The translations under genes and the position numbers were made by a program. The notes beneath the pieces were generated by a model. That model had not been told where the DNA came from, did no database searches, and was given only the letters and a program-made list of their open reading frames with translations. A DNA stretch of 22,071 nt from a virus: IMG/VR virus record IMGVR_UViG_3300042923_000220, positions 1-22,071 of that record; one strand, 5' to 3'. Shown here in pieces: positions 49 to 21,053 of this stretch (the first letter of the stretch is position 1; each line of letters begins with the position of its first letter).

Positions 49-876
49 ATGGCGAAGTATCGGCAGATCCAAATTAGCTTCTGGCAAGATGGGTTCATTC
101 TTACGCTTCCACCGGAAGAAAAGTACTTTTACATCTATCTTATGTCCAACAGCAAAACAACTCAGTGCGGAATCTATGAGCTGCCTTTGAAGGTTATCGA
201 GATGGAAACAGGGTTGTCACCGGATCGGATATTCGAACTGATAAACAAGTTTATTGGATATCGGAAGATAAGGTACAACGAGGAAACGAGGGAAATATTC
301 CTTCTTAACTGGTTGAAGCATAATAGCCTAAAAAGTCCCAAAGTTCGGTCATGTGCAGAGAAAGAATTGCTCGAAGTGAAGCATATACCCTATCAAACCG
401 AGTTTGTACAACTATCCATACAGTATGGATACCCTATCAATAGACTATCCATAGACTCGGGGGAAGAAGAAGAAAAAGAAGAAGAACAAAAAGAAGAACA
501 AGAACAAGAGAAAGTTTTGCATAATTCGAATTTACATCAAGAACGATTAAGGAAATTAGTGATTCAATGCAACATCAAGGGCGCAGGTATAGATGGGTTA
601 GAAACAGTTTATTCCTACATCGGACAAGCTGATCTTGAAGTCATTGAAAAAGCTTTGAAAAAGTCAGAAGGAAAGCATGTTAACTACTTCGTTGAGATTA
701 TCAACGGGATGATTGCAGAGGGAAAAACGTCTAAGGATTCGGTTCGATATATCCAAGCGGTTCCTGATAAGAAACTAGACCTCGAATTAGAATCAAGGCG
801 TATCGAAATTGCACGAAACAAATGGATACAAAATGGCGGTGATCCGAGTGAGTTTAGATACCCAGCAACTTCTTAA
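49..876 (+). CDS. Phage replication initiator / replisome organizer, DnaD-like
   Basis: This is a 275-aa protein with the layout of Firmicute phage replication-initiation proteins. Residues about 1-110 look like a winged-helix domain, opening with KYRQIQISFWQD and continuing into a helical stretch with LPLKVIEMETGLSPDRI, as in the phage replisome-organizer N-terminal family. Residues about 138-155 form a Glu/Lys/Gln linker encoded by an A-rich GAA/AAA tract (460-515). The C-terminal helical part, with KKSEGKHVNYFVEIINGM, resembles the DnaD C-terminal domain that binds ssDNA. The inferred role is to open or coat the phage origin and recruit the helicase encoded immediately downstream, whose start overlaps this gene. 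The ATG at 49 follows AAGGCGGTG, one mismatch from the ideal ribosome binding site. The function rests on family resemblance and neighbourhood; the origin itself was not identified. Confidence 0.8.
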   Translation: MAKYRQIQISFWQDGFILTLPPEEKYFYIYLMSNSKTTQCGIYELPLKVIEMETGLSPDRIFELINKFIGYRKIRYNEETREIFLLNWLKHNSLKSPKVRSCAEKELLEVKHIPYQTEFVQLSIQYGYPINRLSIDSGEEEEKEEEQKEEQEQEKVLHNSNLHQERLRKLVIQCNIKGAGIDGLETVYSYIGQADLEVIEKALKKSEGKHVNYFVEIINGMIAEGKTSKDSVRYIQAVPDKKLDLELESRRIEIARNKWIQNGGDPSEFRYPATS

Positions 877-2119
877 TACAGAATCAGCGGTGTTAGGAGC
901 TGTCCTGCTCGACAACGATGTGATGCACGACATAGCCGAAATGCTAGAACCTCGGGATTTTAGCTATATGGTCCATGAGTTGATATGGAAGGCCATGCAA
1001 TACCAGTACCGCAACAATCGGCCTAATGACCTTGTAACGCTAACGAGTATGTTGGCAAAGTACGATCGGTTGCAGGAGGTTGGAGGGGTAGCATATCTAT
1101 CCCAACTCGCTAATTCCTGCCCAACCTCTGCTAATGCAAAATACTATGTCGATATCGTCAAGCATGCTGCCTATCGGAAACGAGCAAAAGAAGCAGCCGA
1201 GCGCATCCTGCAATTGTGTGAGGATGAAGACGATAACGAACAGCTATTCTCGGAAGTAGAAAAGGCAGCGTTAGGCGTTAGACCGGGCGAATCGGGAACT
1301 ATGCAGCACATTTCCGACAACAAGCAATCCTACATGCAATATCTCCAAACAAAAGATGATTTTATATTCACCAACTTCACAAAGTTTGACGAATGGATGG
1401 GCGGTATTGGTCGAGGATGGCTCTACATACTAGCAGGAAGGCCGAGCGTAGGAAAAACCGCTAAGATGCTCCAGGTCGCAAGAGGAATCGCAGAGCAGAA
1501 CGTTGGCGAAGTGTTGATCTGGTCGCAGGAAATGAAGCGAAATCAACTCTTTAACCGCATGATCGCTCCGGTCGCTCTGGTAAACGGGAACCGCATTAGA
1601 AAAAAAGAGTTAGAGCCATTCGAGTTAGAGCGCATAACAGAAGCTTTTGACAAATTAGAGCAATTGCCACTACACATCGAAGACGCCAAAAACGTAACCA
1701 TCGAGGAAGTACGAGCAACAGCAAGACAGATTAAGCGGAAGTACGGAAAGCTTGGCGCTATTATCGTGGATTACTTAACCATCATGAACATTAAGCAGCA
1801 GAAGGGCGAAACCCGAAGCCAAGCGGTGGGGTATGTGACCCGAACCGCCAAGCAGATCGCACTTGAAATGGATTGCCCGTTTATCATGCTTGCACAGCTC
1901 AGCCGAGATGGGAAAGACGAACCGAAGCTGGAACATCTGAGAGACTCAGGGGAAATCGAACAGGACGCCGATGTCGTGGAGTTCCTTTGGCACAATCCAG
2001 AAGTAACGAATCCAAAGGGGAAGGTTATTCAATCGGTGATCGCAAAAGGTCGGGACGTGGGGGTGAACAATTTTGAGTACCTCTTCGAAGGTTGGTATCA
2101 ACGGTATTCCGAACTGTGA
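848..2119 (+). CDS. dnaB: Replicative DNA helicase, DnaB family
   Basis: Hexameric 5'-3' replicative helicase for the phage fork. The N-terminal domain starts LDTQQLLNTESAVLGAVLL, typical of DnaB. The RecA-like core carries Walker A GRPSVGKTA (about residues 197-205), Walker B IIVDYLTIMN (about 303-312), the LAQLSRD sensor stretch, and a closing motif ending SGEIEQDADVVEF. The length, 423 aa from this start, is close to the usual 430-470. Start choice: the frame is open from a TTG at 809 and has an ATG at 833, but neither has a ribosome binding site. The GTG at 848 lies four bases after GGCGGTGAT (835-843), one mismatch from the consensus, so it is preferred. This gives a 29-base overlap with the initiator and implies translational coupling. 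The DnaD-like neighbour probably helps load it. Confidence 0.93.
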   Translation: MSLDTQQLLNTESAVLGAVLLDNDVMHDIAEMLEPRDFSYMVHELIWKAMQYQYRNNRPNDLVTLTSMLAKYDRLQEVGGVAYLSQLANSCPTSANAKYYVDIVKHAAYRKRAKEAAERILQLCEDEDDNEQLFSEVEKAALGVRPGESGTMQHISDNKQSYMQYLQTKDDFIFTNFTKFDEWMGGIGRGWLYILAGRPSVGKTAKMLQVARGIAEQNVGEVLIWSQEMKRNQLFNRMIAPVALVNGNRIRKKELEPFELERITEAFDKLEQLPLHIEDAKNVTIEEVRATARQIKRKYGKLGAIIVDYLTIMNIKQQKGETRSQAVGYVTRTAKQIALEMDCPFIMLAQLSRDGKDEPKLEHLRDSGEIEQDADVVEFLWHNPEVTNPKGKVIQSVIAKGRDVGVNNFEYLFEGWYQRYSEL

Positions 2120-2349: not shown

Positions 2350-2730
2350 ATGACGAATGATGAAGCGAGGGCGCACTTTGCAAACAGCGGACTTACGTAT
2401 GCGGACATAACCGAAGGTGACATTTGTACCTTGGCGATATTGTTAAATAAGCATCTGAAAGCTGCAAATAAAGCAAAAACAACATCGGTTGATATGCGAA
2501 TGAGTGAAAAGATCAAAAGCAAATACAAGAGCAACGGAACGATTATCGAGTGCTACATGTTCGTGAATAGCCACTATTTTACTCGTAGGGAAGCGATCAG
2601 TTTCAACAAAGATGGATTTATCGGTTTTTCAGGATGGGCTAGCAGTAGGAATACACAACCGCTAATAGCAGCTTTTAAAGAGTGGGTTGATGGTTTACCG
2701 AAGGCCATCGAATCGACCGAATCCGCTTAA
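2350..2730 (+). CDS. Phage protein of unknown function, 126 aa
   Basis: Starts MTNDEARAHFANSGLTYADI. The N-terminal third is helical, and the rest looks alpha/beta (GTIIECYMFVNSHYFTRREA, then SFNKDGFIGFSGWASS) and ends in an amphipathic helix. No catalytic motif was recognised. GGAGGT at 2337-2342 is followed after seven bases by the ATG at 2350. The in-frame GTG at 2344 is only one base from GGAGGT and is therefore rejected. It sits in the replication region between the helicase and the TGT-like enzyme. Confidence 0.75.
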   Translation: MTNDEARAHFANSGLTYADITEGDICTLAILLNKHLKAANKAKTTSVDMRMSEKIKSKYKSNGTIIECYMFVNSHYFTRREAISFNKDGFIGFSGWASSRNTQPLIAAFKEWVDGLPKAIESTESA

Positions 2731-2758
2731 CGAAGTGGTAGCCGAGAAAGGAGAATTT

Positions 2759-2917
2759 ATGAATTGGTCTAAAGCATCTAAAACTCAACTACTCCTAATC
2801 ACCAGTAACTTTGAAGATTGTCCAGTATGGCTAAAGACAGAAGCAAGAGCAGAGTTAATGCGAAGACAAAAACAAACCCACACAAGGATTCAGATGCGGA
2901 GGAAGGAGATCGGATGA
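2759..2917 (+). CDS. Small basic phage protein, 52 aa, unknown
   Basis: Starts MNWSKASKTQLLLITSNFED and becomes strongly basic (ARAELMRRQKQTHTRIQMRR). A clear AAAGGAG lies just ahead of the ATG. The frame is open further upstream, but the extra part overlaps the preceding gene and has no ribosome binding site. Its TGA overlaps the ATG of the next gene (ATGA at 2914-2917), so the TGT-like enzyme is probably translated by coupling from this gene. The basic C-terminus would suit nucleic-acid binding; that is inference. Confidence 0.7.
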   Translation: MNWSKASKTQLLLITSNFEDCPVWLKTEARAELMRRQKQTHTRIQMRRKEIG

Positions 2918-3564
2918 GACGGACTATTTACGTAGCAGGAGTAAACCGAAAACACTTAGCCAAACAAGCAGATAGCGTTCCCTATTGGCTGCTGTCCGTT
3001 ACTTTGCTCCGTAAGTATCCGACATGGCTAGATCAACATTTAGCGAATCGAACGTTGATATGGGACCCTGGAACGTTCACAGAGGATTCCGTAAGTTACA
3101 CCTACTACCGACAATACATCGATAAGTACATGCGCTCCAAGGATCGTTATCTGCAATATGACGAGATCGGAGACGCAGAAGCAACCGAGTATTACTTGCG
3201 AGATATGCGGAAACGTGGGTACAAACCTATTCCTATCATGCAAGGGAGAAGCTTCCACCTACTCCGACAAGAACCCATAGTCGCAATAGGCGGTCTGGTG
3301 ATGATGGGGGATGAAGAACGAAGACGGTATCTGGATGAAATCTTCTACGATTACCGACCAACCGCACAAATCCATTTACTCGGCATGATCAAGCACGAAT
3401 GGTTTACACCTTACCAAACAGCCATTCAAGGAGACAATACGAGCTGGATTCCGAGGGATGAGTGGAACCGAAGAAAAACAATCGAGCAATGGCTAACCGA
3501 GTACGGAGAACAATGGATCCCCTACAGGCAAAGAGAGTTCGTACAGTTAGCGATGGGCTTCTAG
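2914..3564 (+). CDS. TGT/DpdA-like base-exchange enzyme
   Basis: A 216-aa protein whose ordered motifs match the tRNA-guanine transglycosylase superfamily: DPGTFT (51-56, counterpart of DSGGF), YDEIGD (82-87, substrate-pocket Asp), PIMQG (107-111), AIGGLV (124-129, the hallmark GGL loop), HLLGM (154-158), and GDNTSW (173-178), where D174 sits at the position of the nucleophilic Asp. It has no cysteine at all, so the CxCxxC-His zinc site of true TGT is absent, and it is far shorter than TGT (about 370 aa). This points to the phage DpdA-like branch, which places 7-deazaguanine bases into DNA, rather than to a tRNA enzyme. Its true substrate cannot be read from sequence. No preQ0 synthesis gene is in the window. 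The ATG at 2914 follows GGAGGAAGGAG and overlaps the previous stop. Ser of the usual DSGGF is Pro here. Confidence 0.72.
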   Translation: MRRTIYVAGVNRKHLAKQADSVPYWLLSVTLLRKYPTWLDQHLANRTLIWDPGTFTEDSVSYTYYRQYIDKYMRSKDRYLQYDEIGDAEATEYYLRDMRKRGYKPIPIMQGRSFHLLRQEPIVAIGGLVMMGDEERRRYLDEIFYDYRPTAQIHLLGMIKHEWFTPYQTAIQGDNTSWIPRDEWNRRKTIEQWLTEYGEQWIPYRQREFVQLAMGF

Positions 3565-3574
3565 GAGGCAGGAT

Positions 3575-3760
3575 ATGAGCAGGAAACAAGTCCTCTATCA
3601 GATCGACAAGCTATTAACGGGATGTGCGGTATGTCCGAAGAGAGCCGAAATGAATCGGGAAATGAAAGGGCTCTTTGCAAGGATGGATGGACACTGTAAT
3701 AAAAATTGCGAAGTCGGAAGTAAACTGCAGCAACTCGGTAAGTCCTTGGTTAGAACTTAA
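3575..3760 (+). CDS. Small zinc-finger protein
   Basis: A 61-aa protein starting MSRKQVLYQIDKLL. It carries C17-x2-C20 (GCAVCPKR) and, after a helical spacer, HC41-x3-C45 (GHCNKNCEVG), then a short helix KLQQLGKSL. This is the arrangement of the small Bacillus-type zinc-finger proteins found in phages and hosts. One structural zinc is likely; the role (DNA binding or protein contact) is not known. CTAGGAGG lies ahead of the ATG, ten bases after the stop of the TGT-like gene. Confidence 0.8.
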   Translation: MSRKQVLYQIDKLLTGCAVCPKRAEMNREMKGLFARMDGHCNKNCEVGSKLQQLGKSLVRT

Positions 3761-4060: not shown

Positions 4061-4209
4061 GTCAATCTGTGAGGTTCCAAGCCTATTACAAAGGACAGAA
4101 GCTAGGCAATCCCCGAACCGAGAAGCAAAAGAACCAAGTCGAGTTTTGCTGCAGCGATATTTTATGGGCCGTTATCAAGGAGCCCAACGAAAGGGAGGTA
4201 CGGGGATGA
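4057..4209 (+). CDS. Small phage protein, 50 aa, unknown
   Basis: Starts MSQSVRFQAYYKGQKLGNP and ends in a charged tail. It contains an adjacent cysteine pair (FCCSDILW). AGGAGG lies nine bases ahead of the ATG. Both ends overlap their neighbours by four bases (ATGA), a clear sign of a coupled operon. The upstream extension of the frame runs through the preceding gene and was not taken. No function assigned. Confidence 0.65.
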   Translation: MSQSVRFQAYYKGQKLGNPRTEKQKNQVEFCCSDILWAVIKEPNEREVRG

Positions 4210-4568
4210 AGCAAACGCTGAAAGTAAACAACATGCCGCCCAGCTTAACCAAATACCGCAATATGCACTACCAGGTCATCAACAACCAAAAACAAGAGTG
4301 GGAAAGTATCATCGGCTGGCTAGTGAAAGAGCAAAAGATCCAACCGATGCAGCAGATCAAAATGACCTACGAGTTTTATTTCCGCAACCGAACCGAACAC
4401 GATCCCGACAATTACGCCTGTTGCGCCAAGTTTATCAACGATGGATTAGTCAAAGCTGTAGTACTGCCGAGAGATAACTTTGTGCACATCAAAGAATTCA
4501 CGGTAAAACAAGGCGGAGTTTGCAAGCAACCGTACATACTCATTCACATGGAAGAGGTGAGTGCGTGA
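4206..4568 (+). CDS. rusA: RusA-like Holliday junction resolvase
   Basis: A 120-aa protein with the RusA signature DPDNY (66-70), K75, FINDGLVKAVVLPRDN (76-91) with D79 and D90, and a closing strand PYILIHME. The spaced aspartates match the metal-binding set of RusA, which resolves four-way junctions as a dimer. The length equals E. coli RusA (120 aa). The phage role is resolving recombination or replication branches before packaging. GGAGGT lies six bases ahead of the ATG, which overlaps the previous stop as ATGA. The upstream extension is out of place and rejected. Confidence 0.88.
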   Translation: MKQTLKVNNMPPSLTKYRNMHYQVINNQKQEWESIIGWLVKEQKIQPMQQIKMTYEFYFRNRTEHDPDNYACCAKFINDGLVKAVVLPRDNFVHIKEFTVKQGGVCKQPYILIHMEEVSA

Positions 4569-17670: not shown

Positions 17671-18423
17671 ATGTTAAAAAGATGGAACTTGATTGAAGCT
17701 AGGCAAAGAATGGGATTGAAACAGAAAGATATTGGATGGATGCTTGGAATTAAAGAGGCTGCGGTATGTTCTATTGAGTCCGGGTTAAACAATCCAAAAC
17801 CTTTTTACCAAGATGTCCTAGAAGAAGTTTTCTCTATCCCTCGGGATACGCTGTTCGCATTAATACCACAACCTAAAGCGCAAATGAAGAACAAGTATGA
17901 AGTTCGAGGGGATATAACAGCAATTTTCTTGAAAACGAAAGATGGCAGTGTATTGGAAACGCTGATTGACACCAATGACTTAGAAATAGTGAAAAATGTT
18001 TCTGGATGTTGGTATGCGAGTCTCAATAAAGACAAAAAAACTTACTATGCTAAAATTACAACGAAGAATAACAAAGGGATCAAATCAACAATTAGTATGC
18101 ATCGATTAATAATGGGACCACAAAGTAATAATGTGATAGACCACATAAATCATAAGACACTTGATAACAGGCGCTCAAAGAATTTGAGGGAAGCAACAGC
18201 GTCTGAAAATGCACAGAATAGAAAAGGCCCCACAAAGGTATCATCAAGTGGTATCCGCGGTGTACGATGGTATGAAAAGTTACAGAAGTGGATGGTACAC
18301 GCTAAAATAAACGGTAAGAAAACAACGGTCGGATATTATGAGACTATTGAAGAAGCTGAACGTGTTGCAAAAGAAACAAGAGCCAAACATATGCCATACT
18401 CACAAGAAGCACTCGCTAACTAG
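17671..18423 (+). CDS. HTH-HNH-AP2 homing endonuclease-like protein
   Basis: A 250-aa protein with three parts. Residues 8-62 form an Xre-type helix-turn-helix (EARQRMGLKQKDIGWMLGIK, then SIESGLNNPKPFYQDVLEEV). Residues about 108-185 form an HNH nuclease, with MHRLI (H144), IDHINH (D157, H158, N160) and LDNRRSKNLR (N166), followed by NAQNR. Residues 191-240 form an AP2-like DNA-binding domain (SGIRGVRWYEKLQKWMVHA; TTVGYYETIEEAERVAKETR). HNH plus AP2 is the standard layout of free-standing phage homing endonucleases; an Xre-type domain at the front is less usual and could add site choice or self-repression. It has its own promoter, leader and terminator, and looks more AT-rich than its neighbours, so it is a mobile insertion between structural genes. 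Confidence 0.85.
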   Translation: MLKRWNLIEARQRMGLKQKDIGWMLGIKEAAVCSIESGLNNPKPFYQDVLEEVFSIPRDTLFALIPQPKAQMKNKYEVRGDITAIFLKTKDGSVLETLIDTNDLEIVKNVSGCWYASLNKDKKTYYAKITTKNNKGIKSTISMHRLIMGPQSNNVIDHINHKTLDNRRSKNLREATASENAQNRKGPTKVSSSGIRGVRWYEKLQKWMVHAKINGKKTTVGYYETIEEAERVAKETRAKHMPYSQEALAN

Positions 18424-20090: not shown

Positions 20091-21053
20091 GTGCGTAACA
20101 TACTGTTTAGGATGATCAACATTGCAGATATTGTAATGATTCCGGTCACGATTATTAGTTCGTTTATCCTTTTTTGCATCCGCAGAGCAGGCGTACATCG
20201 GATGCCCATGAGTAGAAAGGTATTTCATTGGGTCGGCATTTTTCCAATAAGAGAGCATTATTATGAACCATCCTTTAACTCTATCCATTACAATAAGGCG
20301 TTTGATAGAGAGAGAAGCTTGCCGGGAATTGATTTAAATATTACGGAACAACTGGAAATTCTAGATCGGTTTTCATATAATTCAGAACTAGAAAGATTAC
20401 CCCTAGAAAATACGAATGATCACAGGTACTATTATCGAAATGTTCCTTTTGGATCAGGGGATTCGGAATACCTATACAATATGGTTCGATTGTTTAAACC
20501 GAAGAGGATTATTGAAATCGGTTGCGGATTTTCTACTTTGATGACAATTGAAGCCATCAATGCCAACATGAAGGAAGATAGGAACTATCGGTGCGAACAC
20601 ATCTGTGTAGAACCTTATGAGCAACCTTGGTTAGAAAACACCTCTGCCCAAATTATCCGAAAAAAAATCGAGGATGTAGACAAGGAAGTTTTCAAAAATT
20701 TAGTGGAAAACGACATATTATTTATAGATTCATCGCACGTTATTCGTCCACAGGGTGATGTTCTATTCGAGTATTTAGAGGTTTTACCCATCCTTAATAA
20801 AGGTGTGATTTTACATGTTCACGACATTTTCACACCGTACGATTATCCCAAACAATGGGTCGTTGACGAGGTTAAATTTTGGAATGAACAATACTTACTG
20901 GAATCATTTTTGAGTATGAACAAAGAATATAGAATAATCGGCTCATTAAACCACCTCGCTCATAACTTCTATGAAGAACTAACAGCAAAATGCCCAGTTC
21001 ACAAAAAAGAGCCGTTTAGGGCCCTCGGTTCGTTTTGGATGGTTCGAAACTAG
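20091..21053 (+). CDS. Membrane-anchored class I SAM methyltransferase
   Basis: A 320-aa protein. GTG start after AGGAGGTTAAACA. Residues 12-30 are a hydrophobic membrane segment (ADIVMIPVTIISSFILFCI) flanked by RR. The methyltransferase core follows: motif I IIEIGCGFST (140-149), acidic ribose-binding end of strand 2 ICVEP (171-175, E174), motif IV ILFIDSSHV (209-217, D213), and HVHDIF (242-247), as in Methyltransf_24-type enzymes. The relatives known are often in surface glycan clusters and modify sugars or small molecules; the substrate here is not known. Its own promoters and terminator, its more AT-rich look and its place before the tailspike suggest a moron acting on the host surface from the membrane. 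Confidence 0.75.
   Translation: MRNILFRMINIADIVMIPVTIISSFILFCIRRAGVHRMPMSRKVFHWVGIFPIREHYYEPSFNSIHYNKAFDRERSLPGIDLNITEQLEILDRFSYNSELERLPLENTNDHRYYYRNVPFGSGDSEYLYNMVRLFKPKRIIEIGCGFSTLMTIEAINANMKEDRNYRCEHICVEPYEQPWLENTSAQIIRKKIEDVDKEVFKNLVENDILFIDSSHVIRPQGDVLFEYLEVLPILNKGVILHVHDIFTPYDYPKQWVVDEVKFWNEQYLLESFLSMNKEYRIIGSLNHLAHNFYEELTAKCPVHKKEPFRALGSFWMVRN

Follow-up and report, generated by a model that had tools for sequence, protein, structure and literature searches.

A compact DpdA-like transglycosylase of Bacillota phages and its probable role in DNA modification with a host-made base

The stretch of DNA analysed here (the window, 22,071 nucleotides of a virus record) contains a 216-aa open reading frame that encodes no cysteine and carries the motifs DPGTF, YDEIGD, PIMQG, AIGGLV and GDNTSW in this order (Table 1). 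The coordinates, the length, the absence of cysteine and all five motifs were as given in the original prediction. The same prediction had placed the gene in a replication operon, and this label is fair because the block containing the enzyme comes after a DnaD-like replisome organizer and a DnaB-like helicase; homologues of the helicase were also found near the enzyme gene in records L007, L009 and L010. The ATG of the enzyme follows a strong Shine-Dalgarno sequence AGGAAGGAGA and corresponds to the residue at which the aligned homologues begin, so that there is no need to invoke the longer frame from TTG 2818. The stop codon of the preceding 76-aa frame, for which no PHROG family was found, overlaps this start as ATGA. 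On the other side, a zinc-finger gene starts 10 bp past the enzyme stop codon and its Shine-Dalgarno sequence overlaps that codon, which suggests the coupled translation of both genes. Elsewhere in the window, a homing-endonuclease-like frame with HTH, HNH_3 and AP2 matches was noted between structural genes (17671-18423), and a frame located after them (20091-21053) matched PF13578, a class I methyltransferase domain, with E 4.6e-11.

Table 1. Features at the locus, with the acidic-protein gene of other records carrying the enzyme
Feature	Position	Strand	Basis or remark
DnaD-like replisome organizer / helicase loader	49..876	+	phrog_6251, E 3.8e-47
DnaB-like replicative helicase	809..2119	+	identified by reading alone
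76-aa frame	2687..2917	+	read directly
Shine-Dalgarno AGGAAGGAGA of enzyme gene	2900..2909	+	read directly
Compact DpdA/TGT-like transglycosylase gene, 216 aa	2914..3564	+	ATG 2914, TAG 3562-3564
Shine-Dalgarno AGGAGG of zinc-finger gene	3563..3568	+	read directly
61-aa zinc-finger protein gene (zf-C2HCIx2C), conserved neighbour	3575..3760	+	Pfam match, PF10782
RusA-like Holliday junction resolvase	4146..4568	+	PF05866, E 0.0041, Pfam match below cut-off
Acidic protein gene, 61 aa	L005:20659-20844		also in L011, L017, L019, L021, L022, L023, L031

The scans of viral contigs returned 19 distinct records with copies of about 212-216 aa that were 54-72% identical to the enzyme, and a further copy in Paenibacillus phage PG1 (PANG_00049) was 63.7% identical; the window and these 20 others are together referred to as the 21 virus records. 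The search of a genome collection located the gene in six host-level genomes, namely four of Paenibacillus, Alicyclobacillus sp. ALC3 and Tumebacillus permanentifrigoris. The scan of genome contigs with the single enzyme sequence gave no match, and the alignment-based search succeeded. The dN/dS of close pairs ranged between 0.03 and 0.11; purifying selection on the frame is strong, and the gene is real. One copy on a 59.7-kb prophage contig (L032:8001-8645) has an in-frame TAG, which suggests decay.

The enzyme matched no Pfam family even at E 10 and PF01702 (TGT) matched none of the 21 virus records, but the enzyme matched phrog_887, annotated as queuine tRNA-ribosyltransferase, with E 3.8e-5. 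When the profile of this short family was compared by hhalign with that of phage DpdAs, which includes the CAjan protein, the two were joined with E 3.5e-18 over 176 columns, whereas no link was found to the TGTs of the hosts (E 0.09). A direct sequence link to host TGT was therefore rejected, and that relation is visible by fold only. The sole sequence hit of the short-family profile in the PDB (n = 177,635) was the DpdA 7ui4, with E 0.0086, improving to 6.7e-6 once distant members had joined the profile. The distant relatives obtained by alignment (L024-L030 and Sulfitobacter phage M39) mostly occur in contigs with FolE, QueD and QueC genes, and one of them, L024, matches both the CAjan DpdA (E 4e-52) and the PG1 copy (E 5e-4). 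The role of the CAjan DpdA in DNA modification has been proven by inactivation (PMC6884629). The NCBIfam equivalog NF041059 scored 14.8 bits (E 0.0095) with the enzyme, under its 200-bit cut-off, and this model may be specific to the long bacterial form. Judged by these profiles, the enzyme is homologous in sequence to experimentally proven DpdAs. The five motifs are beyond chance, given the matches to phrog_887, to the DpdA profile and to 7ui4 and the low dN/dS. Among the sequences compared, the lineage of the enzyme, which belongs to Bacillota, formed a separate clade (support 96/96); its placement among the DpdAs was ambiguous, as DpdA2 of nt-1 and others are long branches. Other DpdA-like arrangements were noticed during this search. 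One viral contig carries two different DpdA-like genes in tandem (L026:7977-9625). In Paenibacillus terrae (L048, minus strand), a 448-residue frame with LLDSGEY, GDPEES and CDSTG motifs matches the short-enzyme profile with E 6e-11 (1534-1941, 2548-2649); this frame, which lies next to a transposase-like one, encodes a second DpdA-like protein, a long one.

The AlphaFold2 model of the enzyme, made with 25 sequences, had a pLDDT of 80.8 and a pTM of 0.80. It contains eight strands (residues 4-8, 24-28, 47-51, 78-80, about 107-109, 122-125, 152-155 and 170-175), and on this model the enzyme is a complete TGT-type (beta/alpha)8 barrel within about 175 residues. A TIM barrel was thus found where structure prediction had been proposed as a check, and together with the profile matches to DpdA it upholds the predicted membership of the transglycosylase superfamily. 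A Foldseek search of the PDB ranked the DpdA 7ui4 first and TGTs second to eighth (E 2e-3 to 4e-2), and the best function-named viral matches were queuine tRNA-ribosyltransferases, some of just 207-251 aa. In VIA-align, the model was superposed on archaeosine TGT 1j2b with Z 14.2 (212 residues, 3.6 Å), on 7ui4 with Z 13.3 (199 residues, 3.5 Å) and on Cap10 (9ntn) with Z 12.3. The long phage DpdA L029, when modelled alike, had the eight strands of the enzyme and, beyond them, a hairpin and two helices, and its first structural match was 7ui4 (Z 15.2). The model of the enzyme is without this hairpin and helices after strand 8, and the C-terminal part of about 100 residues present in other phage DpdAs is missing from it, leaving the barrel only; such an extension is common in long phage DpdAs but is not known to define them. 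The residues 179-216 are conserved in the short family but are of low confidence in the model.

The residues D51 (DPGTF), D83 (YDEIGD), G126-G127, H154 and D174 (GDNTSW) align with CAjan and with nearly all other phage DpdAs. All the catalytic positions are retained in the 18 aligned copies, in which D51, D83 and D174 are invariant; the aspartate expected at the nucleophile position was confirmed by the alignment of D174 with the proven CAjan DpdA. H154 (HLLG) is common to DpdAs including 7ui4 (VHLLG), whereas the host TGTs have a tyrosine (YLMGVG). The short family is set apart by Pro52 (DPGTF) and by Gln110, which takes the place of a histidine that almost every other phage DpdA in the comparison has; in TGT the same strand ends with a glutamine (IVQGG), the equivalence being by strand order. 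The replacement of the DSGGF serine by proline had been read as a hint of different substrate use. The replacement is real, but the position holds serine in TGT and CAjan, cysteine in 7ui4, asparagine in the transporter-linked phage proteins described below and proline in the enzyme. Because of this variation across the superfamily, the proline alone is no argument for a different substrate, and its role as a substrate switch is weakened. Similarly, the enzyme has no cysteine and the CxCx2C...H zinc site is absent as predicted, but the loss of zinc was rejected as a special trait because CxCx2C is missing from the CAjan DpdA too. The stronger departures from known DpdAs are the missing C-terminal extension and the glutamine at position 110.

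Of the 21 virus records, 11 carry the PF10782 zinc-finger gene, which in every case lies immediately beside the enzyme, in either gene order; it is downstream in the window and upstream in the ten others (L012, L013, L014, L016, L017, L018, L021, L022, L023 and L032). A scan with the window's zinc-finger protein as a single sequence gave no match, and an alignment-based search succeeded. Its being an exclusive partner of the enzyme was rejected, as 8 of 18 viral loci with this gene have no enzyme nearby; in four of these eight, a C5-cytosine methyltransferase gene lies no more than about 1.4 kb away. Six of the 21 enzyme records also carry a C5-cytosine methyltransferase gene, which in four cases lies a short distance upstream of either the enzyme gene or the zinc-finger gene beside it; the mutual exclusion of the two enzymes was therefore rejected. 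Eight records encode a 61-aa acidic protein directly beside the enzyme; TDNPDPD stands near the end of most copies, and the Pfam and PHROG search with its PG1 copy found no family. All seven viral contigs found with this protein were enzyme contigs, a count that is biased because the search patterns were taken from enzyme contigs. The neighbour counts as a whole are not independent events, since many copies are related.

In the Tumebacillus record L041, a 159-aa transporter of the VUT/YhhQ family (1974-2453) starts 14 bp downstream of the enzyme. It shares its PHROG (phrog_4899) with a CAjan gene that is annotated as a preQ0 transporter, and the two are 32% identical. A viral-contig search with this transporter gave 14 loci, and in 11 of these a DpdA-like gene lies at a distance of up to about 0.7 kb. 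The DpdA-like proteins so linked (loci L077-L090) are mostly of 220-258 aa, most of them with DNGAF, and seem to form a group of short DpdAs of the salvage type.

The genes for FolE, QueD, QueC and QueF were searched and none was found in the window, in agreement with the earlier claim that it holds no preQ0 gene, though this record covers just 22 kb and further genes may lie elsewhere in the genome. The result was the same for all 21 virus records, among them that of PG1 with 37.6 kb; the records may be fragments, which cannot prove absence, but the count is nonetheless consistent. All four genes, as well as TGT, are present in each of the six host-level genomes carrying the enzyme gene, and the four Paenibacillus genomes have a strong YhhQ/VUT match as well. 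This distribution supports the predicted reliance on the host pathway. The records fit the 'third group' of DpdAs, which have no pathway genes and for which the host pathway is the likely source (PMC6884629).

We consider it fairly likely that the enzyme is a compact salvage-type DpdA modifying phage DNA with host-made 7-deazaguanine and thereby giving protection from restriction. Asp174 would open the N-glycosidic bond of guanine in phage DNA and a 7-deazaguanine base, most likely preQ0 or preQ1, would replace the guanine. As the phages have the enzyme for insertion and no genes for synthesis, the base would be drawn from the host queuosine pathway in a salvage mode, the supplying host being probably Paenibacillus-type, and host restriction would be less effective against DNA with the modified guanines. 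The barrel fold, the DpdA homology, the catalytic columns, the host supply and the context of transporter and methyltransferase count for DNA modification; the lack of the C-terminal part, the low-confidence tail (179-216) and Gln110 for histidine count against it. There are published cases of singleton DpdAs in phages whose hosts have the Q pathway; one phage of this kind, Salmonella phage 7-11, has low dADG, only ~0.02% of G (PMC6884629). The DNA of singleton-DpdA phage Orion is unmodified, and its host lacks the pathway (PMC6884629). In view of these two cases, singleton DpdAs may have little activity or another function. A rather doubtful variant is a two-part transglycosylase, in which the barrel would have shed its nucleic-acid-binding part and the separate zinc-finger protein would supply the binding of DNA or of a partner; it draws on the zinc-finger gene lying next door in about half of the virus records, in either order.

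The targets of TGT-family enzymes besides DNA include tRNA and, for CBASS Cap10, protein (PMC11996544). A small TGT that swaps guanine in host or phage tRNA and tunes decoding during infection would agree with the fold match to archaeosine TGT, which is as good as that to DpdA, and with Gln110 at the place of TGT's glutamine, where most phage DpdAs have histidine. This is unlikely, as the profiles join the enzyme to phage DpdAs and not to host TGTs, the zinc domain and the PTR motif of TGT are lacking, every host-level genome already has a full TGT, and the neighbours are genes of replication and DNA methylation. It is distinctly unlikely that the protein is a catalytically weak or idle DpdA relic retained to serve some other function, for example DNA binding: the truncation relative to other phage DpdAs, the unmodified DNA of Orion (PMC6884629) and the interrupted prophage copy in L032 would be in line with it, but the strict retention of the active site in all aligned copies and the low dN/dS argue against it. 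The structural match to Cap10, a TGT-family enzyme remodelled for protein (PMC11996544), brings in a non-nucleic-acid target, for example the conjugation or binding of a 7-deazaguanine-tagged protein as in type IV CBASS, possibly in counter-defence. We regard this as very unlikely, since a QueC-like Cap9 partner was found in none of the 21 virus records (which may be fragments) and both the transporter link of DpdAs and the closer sequence similarity point to the DNA-acting DpdAs.

If the salvage-type DpdA reading is true, the smallest form of DNA base exchange needs little beyond a barrel of ~180 residues, Bacillota phages without pathway genes draw 7-deazaguanine from the tRNA pathway of their hosts, and phage DNA hypermodification extends to prophages of Paenibacillus, Alicyclobacillus and Tumebacillus. 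It would also offer a compact enzyme for DNA labelling. The named isolate PG1 allows a direct test of singleton DpdA activity.

Among the known systems, the CAjan DpdA (AJT60520; phrog_887) shares with the enzyme the barrel order, the D/D/GG/H/D columns and a DxTxW-like nucleophile motif, and both are without the zinc site of TGT. It differs in having 306 aa with a C-terminal extension against 216 aa, DSGAF against DPGTF, and histidine against glutamine after strand 5; its gene lies in a FolE/QueD/QueE/QueC cluster with a transporter, whereas the enzyme gene is without pathway genes. The bacterial DpdA 7ui4, a DNA preQ0 insertase, has HLLG and DSTT-type motifs that align with the enzyme, but is about twice as long and has DCGAF; it belongs to the multi-gene bacterial dpd system. 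Bacterial TGT (PF01702) has the same fold and equivalent D, D, Q, G and D positions by strand order, while the enzyme lacks the zinc domain, the PTR motif and the Pfam hit and is found in a phage replication context. The transporter-linked short TGT-like phage proteins (L078-L090, mostly 220-258 aa) are small and lie beside a VUT transporter as in L041, but they mostly have DNGAF and PVWH and form a sequence group other than that of the enzyme; they were not found as a named group in a literature search of accessible papers. The singleton phage DpdAs, like the enzyme, are inserting enzymes without synthesis genes and with the host pathway as a possible source. They are known from 76 phages, the published ones clustering in Mycobacterium and gamma-proteobacterial phages (PMC6884629), and the enzyme differs from them in its compactness, its Bacillota lineage and its separate clade among the sequences compared. 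Singleton and short DpdAs are already known, and what marks the lineage of the enzyme is its own active-site changes together with the conserved small zinc-protein neighbour.
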